Origin: an uncultured Arenicella sp.
GTDB lineage: Bacteria; Pseudomonadota; Gammaproteobacteria; Arenicellales; Arenicellaceae
Assembly: GCA_938048185.1 (NCBI GenBank)
Contig: CALIVT010000002.1
Location: 1-64,000 of the forward strand
DNA length: 64,000 bases
Direction of reading: 5' to 3'
Position 1 is the first letter of the stretch. Every line of letters begins with the position of its first letter. Under the pieces are notes generated by a model. That model did not search any database, had not been told where the DNA came from, and saw only the letters and a program-made list of their open reading frames with translations. Shown piece by piece: positions 18,490-21,269 of the stretch. The position numbers and the translations under genes were made by a program.

Positions 18490-18495
18490 TATAAT
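18490..18495 (+). promoter_or_regulatory. Probable -10 box of the spermidine operon
   Basis: A perfect TATAAT lies 181 nt before the speD ATG. No good -35 is seen 16-18 nt upstream, so an activator may be needed. Transcription would start near 18502 and give a leader of about 175 nt. Confidence 0.45.
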
Positions 18496-18585
18496 TTTCA
18501 CCGTGTAACAAAATTTACTTGTGTTCTGAGAAAAAAAAACTAAACTAGCGAGTCATTTTTTAAGCCTTCGGGATTTTTATGTATA

Positions 18586-18667
18586 GCCGCTAACGGCGCG
18601 TGATTGGAGCGTTTTCAAGATCGAAAACAAGCCTCACAAAAACGCGTTAGCCAACCCTTTTTGTGAG
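18586..18667 (+). promoter_or_regulatory. Structured speD leader that can sequester the ribosome-binding site
   Basis: Three hairpins lie within 90 nt of speD: GCCG/CGGC (18586-18597), GTTTTC/GAAAAC (18611-18628) and a perfect 10-bp stem CTCACAAAAA (18633-18642) with TTTTTGTGAG (18658-18667). The 3' arm of the last contains the only Shine-Dalgarno-like sequence (GTGAG, 9 nt before ATG). Its 15-nt loop contains CGTTAGC (18645-18651), exactly complementary to GCTAACG at 18589-18595 in the first hairpin, so a pseudoknot or switch is possible. The pairings are direct; regulation is inferred. Confidence 0.55.
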
Positions 18668-18676
18668 TATGTTTCG

Positions 18677-19216
18677 ATGACACTCGAATTAAATGAATCT
18701 ATCGGCGAGCTCGCCGCAAACGATGCTGGCGATGCCTCATGGCCAAGCCACAACCAAGCCACTGAATTCGACACAGTCGATCACTTTATCGTTCGCAACG
18801 GCGTCGAATTCGCGGGCACCCACATTATTCTCGACTTATGGGGTGCGCAACAGTTAGACGATATTCAGCATATGGAGCGCACCTTGCGCAAAGCGGTACA
18901 AGTGGCTGGCGCAACCCTTTTACACATTCACCTGCATCACTTTACGCCCAACGGCGGTGTCTCTGGGGTAGCGGTATTAGCTGAATCACACATTAGTGTG
19001 CACACGTGGCCTGAGCGAGACTTCGCCGCATTTGATGTCTTTATGTGTGGCGACGCACAACCAGAACTGACCATCCCAGTGCTTCGCGAGGCGTTCCAAC
19101 CCAGTGGCATTAATATTTCAGAACATTTGCGTGGCACCAATTTACCTAGTCTTGAGGCCAGCAAGCTAGCGGCCAATGATACGGTCGCCGAGCAGGTGCA
19201 CGAACAACAAGCATGA
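18677..19216 (+). CDS. speD: S-adenosylmethionine decarboxylase proenzyme
   Basis: SpeD decarboxylates S-adenosylmethionine to supply the aminopropyl donor for spermidine. The product is 179 aa. The core has LAESHISVHTWPERDFAAFDVFMCGD: self-cleavage before Ser104 (between Glu103 and Ser104) would create the pyruvoyl cofactor, and His109 and Cys124 are the conserved processing and catalytic residues. This is the short prokaryotic class-1B type, with an N-terminal extension of about 30 residues. Its stop overlaps the speE start (ATGA). A folded leader precedes it. Confidence 0.95.
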   Translation: MTLELNESIGELAANDAGDASWPSHNQATEFDTVDHFIVRNGVEFAGTHIILDLWGAQQLDDIQHMERTLRKAVQVAGATLLHIHLHHFTPNGGVSGVAVLAESHISVHTWPERDFAAFDVFMCGDAQPELTIPVLREAFQPSGINISEHLRGTNLPSLEASKLAANDTVAEQVHEQQA

Positions 19217-20073
19217 AATATTTTAAAGAAACCCTGTACGACGCGGTGTGCCAAGAATATCGCGTGGATAAACTGTACTTCGAAAGCAAGACCGAACATC
19301 AGCATTTGATGATCTTCCATAACGCAATGTTAGGTCGGGTAATGACCTTAGACGGCATTGTTCAAACCACCGAAGCCGACGAGTTCATCTACCACGAAAT
19401 GTTAGCCCACGTGCCGATGCTAGCGCACGGCCAAGCCAAGCGAGTACTGATTATTGGCGGCGGCGATGGTGGCATGTTACGCGAAGTGGTCAAACACCCG
19501 ATCGCGCATGTAACACAAGTTGAGATCGACCAATCGGTGGTGGATATGGCAATCGAGTACCTACCAAAGCACTCGAATGGCGCCTATAACGACGCTCGTC
19601 TTAACCTAGTTATTGATGACGGATTTAATTTCGTAAACACCTTTGCCGCCAGCGATAACGAAAAATTTGACGTCATTATCTCAGACAGCACCGACCCAAT
19701 CGGCCCAGGCGAGGTGCTATTCAGCGACGATTTTTATCGTTTGGCAAAAGCGTGCTTAAAATCAGATGGCATTATGGTCACTCAAAACGGGGTGCCTTTT
19801 TTTCAAGCCGATGAAGTGCAAAATACGCAAACACGAATGGGCGCGTTATATCGCGACATGCGTTTTTACTGCGCGCCAATACCTACCTACTATGGTGGCT
19901 TTATGACCTTCGCGTGGGGCACTGATAATACGTCGGCCAGCGCGCCAGACGCCGCTGATCTTAACCATCGCTTCGAAGCGCTTGCCCTCGAGACGCGCTA
20001 TTACAACCCCGCAATTCATACCGCTAGCTTTGCGTTACCGCAATATATACACAAGGCGATAGAAAGCGCATGA
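19213..20073 (+). CDS. speE: Spermidine synthase
   Basis: SpeE transfers the aminopropyl group of decarboxylated SAM to putrescine. The product is 286 aa with the usual short N-terminal beta domain and a Rossmann methyltransferase-like core. IIGGGDGGMLREVVKHP (about 80-96) binds the donor, Asp158-Ser159 lie in the catalytic SDSTDPIGPGEVLFSDDFY loop, and the YYGGFMTFAWG segment is family-typical. It is coupled to its neighbours by 4-nt overlaps on both sides, which should keep the three spermidine enzymes in balance. Confidence 0.97.
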   Translation: MKYFKETLYDAVCQEYRVDKLYFESKTEHQHLMIFHNAMLGRVMTLDGIVQTTEADEFIYHEMLAHVPMLAHGQAKRVLIIGGGDGGMLREVVKHPIAHVTQVEIDQSVVDMAIEYLPKHSNGAYNDARLNLVIDDGFNFVNTFAASDNEKFDVIISDSTDPIGPGEVLFSDDFYRLAKACLKSDGIMVTQNGVPFFQADEVQNTQTRMGALYRDMRFYCAPIPTYYGGFMTFAWGTDNTSASAPDAADLNHRFEALALETRYYNPAIHTASFALPQYIHKAIESA

Positions 20074-21269
20074 CGCAGACTAGTGAAAACCAGATCGATA
20101 CGCGCCCGCTGCTAACCGGTGACACCGTTAGTGCCGACGAAGCTCAGGCTGCCGCGGAACTTTATCGCGAACTGATTAGCCAACATGGTTCGCCCTTGCT
20201 GGTGTTTGACGCAAACGTGCTGCGCGAACAATTTAGGTCCTTACAAGCAGCGCTGCCCAAGGTCGAGTTGTATTACGCCGTCAAGGCACACCCCGACGCT
20301 AACATTATTAAAGTAATCGACGAGCTTGGGGGTGGCTTTGATATTGCCTCAGCAGGTGAAATGGACTTATTGCTCGACCATCAAGTATCTGGACGTCGCA
20401 CGATTCACACACACCCGATTAAGAAAGATCAGGAGATACGTGACGCCCTACGATTCGGCGCGACCACGTTTGTAGTCGATAATTTTCATGAATTAAAAAA
20501 ACTCGTCAACTACCGCTCACGCGTCGGCGTGTTGCTGCGGGTAAGCTTTCGCAGTGCTTCGGCGAAAGTAGATCTATCTAAAAAATTTGGTTGCTCGCCC
20601 GACGAAGTATTAGCCTTGGTCGAACAGGCAGAGCAGCTCGGCATACATATTAAAGGTTTATCGTTTCACGTGGGCTCGCAGGTAGAAGACGCAAGCAAAC
20701 ATGTAGAAGCCATTCATGCCTGCAGGCAATTGATGTCACAGATCAACCGCCAAGCGGAAAAGCCACTAAGCGTATTAGATATCGGCGGCGGCTTTCCAGC
20801 AGACTATGAGTTGGCCGGCTTTAGCATTAATACATTTTGCGCGCCGATTCGGAACGCACTTGCCGAACTGCCCAGTGACTGGCATTTGATCGCCGAGCCG
20901 GGACGCTATCTGATCGCGCCTGCGGTAACCAGCATTACTTCCATTGCTGGAAAATCCCAGCGTAACGGTTTCGCTTGGTACTATCTGGACGATGGTATTT
21001 ACGGTTCTTATTCAGGTCAGTTGTTTGATCACGCAACATACCCACTGCAAGTTTTTCGAGGCGGCCAAACCGCTGCCAGCATCATCGCTGGCCCGACCTG
21101 TGACAGTATTGACATTGTCGCGGAAAACATAATGCTGCCGTCACTCGAAATTGGTGACCTAGTCGTCGGGCATCAAATGGGGGCCTACACCGCAGCAACT
21201 AAAACCCGGTTTAATTCTCTACCGGATGCGAAGCTGGTAGTTCTAAACGCATCGGCAAGGGTAGACTAG
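20070..21269 (+). CDS. Ornithine (or lysine) decarboxylase, PLP fold type III
   Basis: This 399-aa enzyme is of the eukaryotic-ODC/alanine-racemase fold. The PLP lysine is Lys72 (YYAVKAHPD), His200 stacks on the cofactor (SFHVGSQ), GGGFP (239-243) and EPGRY (276-280) bind phosphate, and Cys344-Asp345 in GPTCDSID are the substrate-side catalytic pair. The pattern fits ODC better than diaminopimelate decarboxylase, and its place as third gene after speD-speE agrees: it would supply putrescine. Lysine activity giving cadaverine cannot be excluded. A terminator follows 37 nt after the stop. Confidence 0.9.
   Translation: MTQTSENQIDTRPLLTGDTVSADEAQAAAELYRELISQHGSPLLVFDANVLREQFRSLQAALPKVELYYAVKAHPDANIIKVIDELGGGFDIASAGEMDLLLDHQVSGRRTIHTHPIKKDQEIRDALRFGATTFVVDNFHELKKLVNYRSRVGVLLRVSFRSASAKVDLSKKFGCSPDEVLALVEQAEQLGIHIKGLSFHVGSQVEDASKHVEAIHACRQLMSQINRQAEKPLSVLDIGGGFPADYELAGFSINTFCAPIRNALAELPSDWHLIAEPGRYLIAPAVTSITSIAGKSQRNGFAWYYLDDGIYGSYSGQLFDHATYPLQVFRGGQTAASIIAGPTCDSIDIVAENIMLPSLEIGDLVVGHQMGAYTAATKTRFNSLPDAKLVVLNASARVD

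Follow-up and report, generated by a model that had tools for sequence, protein, structure and literature searches.

The window, the whole 64,000-nucleotide stretch of DNA analysed here, carries on its forward strand an operon in the order speD, speE and an ornithine/arginine-type decarboxylase gene. The first gene encodes S-adenosylmethionine decarboxylase (AdoMetDC; speD, 18677-19216; PF02675) and the second, which overlaps it, spermidine synthase (speE, 19213-20073; PF01564); the third encodes a PLP-dependent decarboxylase (20070-21269; PF02784/PF00278), and neighbouring genes overlap by a few bases at each junction. Upstream of speD, also on the forward strand, lies a mini-ORF of four codons, ATG TAT AGC CGC TAA (MYSR, 18579-18593), which is identified by length-class enrichment and by comparison with relatives. 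It is preceded by a weak Shine-Dalgarno (SD) sequence, CGGGA (18569-18573), where most relatives have GGGG or GAGG. The mini-ORF had been overlooked in the initial annotation, and its stop codon falls within what was there called an upstream hairpin. The same device, consisting of a promoter, an SD, an ORF of three or four codons and two helices (H1 and H2), recurs in related speD leaders from several gammaproteobacterial lineages.

The helix nearest to speD, H2, had been described as a perfect 10-bp hairpin that buries the speD ribosome-binding site, and this description is correct. CTCACAAAAA (18633-18642) is fully complementary to TTTTTGTGAG (18658-18667) across a loop of 15 nt, and the SD GTGAG (18663-18667) lies within the 3' arm, 9 nt ahead of the ATG at 18677. 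H2 can be extended outward by the pairing of ATCGAA (18620-18625) with TTCGAT (18673-18678), so that the speD start codon is covered too. On the basis of pairing and of the relatives, the 5' arm (ATCGAA...CTCACAAAAA, 18620-18642) is both anti-SD and anti-start, while the 3' arm (TTTTTGTGAG...TTCGAT, 18658-18678) holds the SD and part of the ATG. The 62-nt H2 region has a predicted fold of -18.7 kcal/mol. The 64-kb window contains five hairpins with a perfect 10-bp stem and a loop of 3-20 nt, compared with a mean of 0.9 in shuffled sequences; such a hairpin is therefore uncommon, and this one is also well placed. The stability of the 241-nt leader region taken alone is not unusual (z -0.40). 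In the relatives an anti-SD located upstream pairs with the SD of speD and often also with its start codon. The recurrence of an SD-hiding helix in relatives with different sequences supports the earlier proposal of a translational switch ahead of speD.

Where does the leader begin? A TATAAT located 181 nt before the speD ATG had been taken to define a long leader. The hexamer is present (18490-18495), but a promoter scan found no sigma-70-type pair there, and it is probably not the promoter. It was rejected as a candidate on the grounds that its position is not conserved, unlike that of a second pair, TTGTGT (-35, 18519-18524) and TAAACT (-10, 18541-18546), separated by 16 nt. The assignment of this promoter follows from the fixed spacing among relatives: in 26 of 29 leaders, 29-32 nt lie between the end of the -10 element of the best-scoring pair and the mini-ORF ATG, and the spacer of the pair is nearly always 16 nt. 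Transcription would then start near 18553, which makes the leader about 124 nt long rather than 181 nt or more.

Is the mini-ORF more than a chance occurrence? SpeD relatives were gathered from the window's order, from its class and from a genome collection, and ORF enrichment was measured in 102 unique speD loci for which protein similarity was the sole selection criterion, with expected counts taken from dinucleotide shuffles. SD-preceded ORFs with two sense codons after the ATG occur at 8 loci (1.35 expected) and those with three at 15 loci (1.27 expected), counts that are not independent events because the carriers mostly belong to one SpeD clade, with several losses and a few carriers elsewhere. 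ORFs with one or with 4-12 sense codons after the ATG are found at chance expectation in the same 102 loci. In all, about 28 leaders bear a mini-ORF, some of them closely related. The four-codon peptides are MYSR, MFSR, MLRR, MVPR, MFQR, MFFR, MNIR, MLIR, MHTR, MLVR, MFYR, MFHR, MFIC and MFYQ, and the three-codon peptides MFT, MYT, MVT, MCN, MFP, MYS, MFF and MDI. Codons 2 and 3 vary freely (12 and 18 forms), and TAA, TAG and TGA all serve as stops. Codon 4 is an arginine CGN codon in 16 of the 18 four-codon ORFs (14 CGC, one CGT and one CGG). Five relatives within the carrier clade have no intact mini-ORF (L010, L021, L037, L136 and L097). As read by eye, L021 aligns ATA with the start codon and TGG with the stop codon and keeps the H1 stem; H1-like arms are also kept in L037. 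In L097 the start is retained, TAA has become CAA, and the frame runs open into speD.

The second helix, H1, connects the mini-ORF stop with the loop of H2. It had been noted that the loop carries CGTTAGC, complementary to an upstream GCTAACG, and this holds; the upstream segment forms a small local hairpin (GCCG-CTAA-CGGC, 18586-18597) that spans the mini-ORF stop and is not kept in this form by most relatives. The pairing of the loop with the upstream segment is conserved as H1. In the window the 5' arm of H1 consists of GCTAA (18589-18593) and CGCGT (18597-18601), at and just past the stop codon, and the 3' arm is ACGCGTTAGC (18642-18651), so that GCTAA and CGCGT pair with TTAGC and ACGCG. 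The sequences differ between leaders, with GCATC/GGTGT in L133, GCACC/GGTGT in L134, GCGTCT/AGACGC in L059, GCGTC/GGCGC in L022 and ACGTC/GGCGT in L025. Whether the ORF has three or four codons, the 5' arm begins 2-5 nt past its stop in 23 of 24 leaders; in the exception, L126, the H1 piece used starts at +8, and a shorter GCG piece is found at +5.

H1 and H2 together give the order a-b-a'-b', which was first read as a pseudoknot and which is seen in the leaders where both helices could be placed. The second helix is conserved, and with a single base common to H1 and H2 in the window a structure holding both is possible there; the two cores likewise hardly overlap in L025 and L034. In several lineages, however, the two helices claim the same bases (L008, L022, L059, L126, L133 and L135), although in L022 the overlap of the cores is again slight.

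Since the helices were first chosen by eye, pairing was tested without any choice of helices, by comparing native with swapped arms. The H1 arms (mean -2.35 kcal/mol; p 6e-5 and 3e-4) pair better within their own leader than with the arms of other leaders, and so do the H2 arms (-2.0; p 4e-4 and 2e-3). When the offset was scanned, the H1 signal appeared at stop+3 to stop+6 only. A shuffle test of pairing gave combined p-values of 6e-6 and 2e-8; as the leaders are not phylogenetically independent, all these p-values are optimistic. When the window clade is aligned with MAFFT, 91% and 76% of cells retain the stem pairs, with no two-sided compensation in H1 or H2. The one-sided changes within this clade were the reason for using arm swaps across clades. 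The stem covariation that the initial annotation had called for is thus found across clades, where the arms co-vary, and not within the window clade.

Comparison of the sequences establishes the mini-ORF, the constant spacing between it and H1, and the leader-specific pairing of both helices. How might they work together? We consider the leader to be a translational attenuator operated by an upstream ORF (uORF), in which a ribosome lingering at the mini-ORF stop represses speD, and give this reading a probability of about one half. That the mini-ORF is translated and that ribosomes pause on it are inferences of ours, as are the nature of the signal and the direction in which it would act. A conserved, translated-looking ORF of three or four codons, set at a constant distance from H1, suggests that the sensor is the ribosome. 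The promoter-proximal SD would load a ribosome onto this short ORF, MYSR in the window. A ribosome with a stop codon in its A site covers roughly the next 10-12 nt, and this is the stretch occupied by the 5' arm of H1; a helix starting a few nucleotides past the stop would therefore lie within the ribosome footprint. H1 would compete with H2, which hides the SD and start codon of speD. With rapid termination on the mini-ORF, H1 would form first and speD would be translated; when the ribosome lingers, H1 would be prevented, H2 would close and speD would be switched off.

Two features are generally looked for in uORF attenuators: an SD-preceded leader ORF that is conserved as an ORF, and competing helices at the uORF stop and over the downstream SD. 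Both are found in the speD leaders, with strict mutual exclusion of the helices in only some lineages. In constrained ensembles of the window leader, the probability that the speD SD is open is 0.00 when a ribosome occupies the uORF stop and 0.35 with H1 formed, and the corresponding values for the AUG are 0.02 and 0.62. For the whole family the SD is open at 0.26 with the ribosome and at 0.29 with H1 (p 0.20), which favours neither direction. Of the two folds H2 is the more stable in the window, and H1 would therefore need to form during transcription. Against an attenuator stand the weak SD that precedes the uORF in the window group, the absence of two-sided compensation within the window clade, the near-separateness of H1 and H2 in the window, and the relatives in which the mini-ORF is missing or, in L097, has lost its stop.

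The simplest signal would be an excess of polyamine that slows the release of the short peptidyl-tRNA, giving end-product feedback as in mammals. Mammalian AdoMetDC mRNA carries a six-codon uORF, MAGDIS, at whose stop codon ribosomes stall when polyamine is high, and the main ORF is repressed (PMC4505036). The likeness lies in a very short uORF ahead of the same enzyme; the mammalian element differs in acting as a block to eukaryotic scanning, in having six codons and in lacking an RNA switch helix, and its sequence is unrelated to the speD mini-ORFs. The hexapeptide itself is absent, since the bacterial peptides have 3-4 residues and are mostly MxxR or M[FYV]x, with a single MDI (L011).

The nearest case that has been worked out is Salmonella speF, in which pausing at the stop codon of orf34 has been proposed to prevent a hairpin located downstream of the stop, whereupon the RBS is made inaccessible (PMC6386406). 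Like the speD mini-ORF, orf34/speFL is a leader ORF of a polyamine enzyme, with a proposed role for a ribosome at its stop in blocking a helix further downstream, and E. coli SpeFL ends in FFNAR-stop, with an arginine before the stop as in the four-codon mini-ORFs. It differs in its 34 codons, its sensor domain, Rho-dependent termination, induction by ornithine and in the gene controlled, speF and not speD; the window ORF has four codons, in place of the 34-codon ORF with an HIRRT core that marks this family (DUF2618). In the E. coli mdtU leader of mdtJI, the spermidine response requires translation of the uORF, and base-pairing is predicted between the uORF region and the RBS that follows it (PMC7815308). 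There, too, the ORF has 34 codons, and the leader serves a spermidine exporter through induction and Rho termination.

By analogy with speF, mammalian AdoMetDC, SpeFL and mdtU, a polyamine is a natural guess for the signal. A sensory uORF of three or four codons, coupled to an H1/H2 switch and controlling gammaproteobacterial AdoMetDC as polyamine (or SAM) slows termination, is put forward tentatively, and equally tentative is the suggestion that it would be a bacterial counterpart, of independent origin, to the mammalian AdoMetDC uORF. A search of the open-licence literature found no account of a leader ORF ahead of bacterial speD. If the proposal is true, bacteria and animals separately reached tiny uORFs for the same polyamine enzyme, and the leader would offer a very small system for studying how a metabolite acts on termination when the peptide is too short to extend deep into the exit tunnel. 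For mutation, the three elements (mini-ORF, H1 and H2) are cleanly separable targets.

Could control run in the opposite direction? The a-b-a'-b' structure with both helices in place might repress speD; H1 would then be broken, and translation activated, by a ribosome occupying the mini-ORF. The order of the arms is compatible with this, as are the nearly separate cores in the window, L022, L025 and L034. In many three-codon leaders the post-stop UAGCCCA can pair with AUGGGU at the speD start, which a ribosome would free, and in several three-codon leaders (L022, L076, L090, L126 and L135) the SD is more open with the ribosome than with H1. The use of the same bases by both helices in L008, L059, L126, L133 and L135 argues against it, as does the window H2, which stays closed in the ribosome-parked state; the Salmonella speF model also runs the other way (PMC6386406). 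Activation by the ribosome is unlikely on balance, with some weight left to it.

The initial annotation had suggested a polyamine or SAM sensor, and a metabolite-binding riboswitch would make the mini-ORF incidental. Small SAM riboswitches share the pseudoknot-like topology with a sequestered SD, and the polyamine gene context would suit such an element. Aptamers conserve unpaired nucleotides; no unpaired core conserved between lineages was noticed in the leaders compared. Rfam gave no riboswitch match at the gathering score for the window or 11 relatives; when the window and L002-L008 were scanned with permissive E-values, only chance matches appeared. The enrichment of one exact ORF length class would also be left unexplained. 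Spermidine riboswitches do occur in other bacteria, the known one being a SAM-I variant with a large aptamer that controls transcription termination (PMC10853860). It resembles the speD leader in controlling polyamine genes, including speD; no such aptamer is present here, and its Rfam covariance model was not matched. The alphaproteobacterial speF element (RF00518) is a long multistem RNA before a different gene (PMC1273637); it is likewise a structured polyamine-gene leader of unknown trigger, and its family model has no match in the speD leader. A riboswitch is accordingly unsupported and improbable.

Just as improbable is a role in ribosome loading, in which the mini-ORF and its SD would protect or space the mRNA without sensing anything, as has been reported for the six-codon mini-ORF of LEE4. 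Leader minigenes of two to six codons (axe-txe, LEE1, LEE4) alter downstream expression in cis (PMC8708949), and they are precedents for a promoter-proximal SD with a very short ORF. They differ in having no conserved switch helices and no polyamine gene, and protection or coupling has been proposed for them; loading would leave unexplained the fixed distance from stop to H1, the leader-specific H1/H2 pairing and the two favoured ORF lengths. An arginine gauge, in which slow decoding of the Arg codon at low charged tRNA-Arg shifts the H1/H2 balance, is very improbable, since despite the arginine directly before the stop in most four-codon ORFs and the sensing of arginine by Salmonella orf34 through Arg codons 12-13, ten leaders have three-codon ORFs without Arg, the remainder mostly have one single CGC codon, and the Salmonella Arg adjoining the stop is dispensable (PMC6386406).

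A covariance model of the window clade found the leader only before speD in 369 genomes of the class, which is weak evidence for its absence elsewhere because the model misses most distant leaders. One extra match (L147, E 0.088) has an unrelated gene downstream and looks like chance.

The survey of speD loci also brought to light other conserved leaders. In Thiomicrorhabdus, Hydrogenovibrio and relatives (L026, L028, L030, L032, L039-L041, L050 and L052), a separate element, AAAAATGGTTAA..CCTCAC..GTGG(C/T)TGGGGTT..AACTA(T)GCC..TTAATCATTCATCCG, lies 100-180 nt before speD; L028, the only locus of this group scanned, has no Rfam match. In Kangiella and relatives (L053, L062, L071, L080, L082 and L084) speD is preceded by a block AGTAGGTCTGGGAAGTTT..ATCGTTACGCCCCCAGAA..AAGCTTGTTTATGGCTTCCC, without an Rfam match in L084, and in Pseudohongiella and relatives (L029, L038, L047, L058, L060, L064 and L065) by a block like CACGCATGGTGTGGAGGCTTATAGTCCAGAC..GACGGTCTATGAGTTCACCGCCATCTTTTTTTGGGG (no Rfam match for L029). 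Another family of the window's order (L013, L014 and L017) has the leader CACGGCACCGAAGGCGGCA..GGCTGTCCGGGGGTGCACGGGAGTTACTACTGGTT..GCATCAACAACTGGGGGACTTGCCG before a divergent speD, with no Rfam match for L013 and L014. Finally, a TCATCTGCTGGTTGGGGAGG-like block, for which Rfam gave no match in L066, L067, L094 and L098, stands directly 5' of speD and contains its SD in loci mostly from alphaproteobacteria (L046, L051, L063, L066, L067, L069, L074, L085, L092-L096 and L098); in the Hyphomicrobiaceae it is preceded by repeated AAGGTCAAGGA / AAAGGTAAGGAGCGG.
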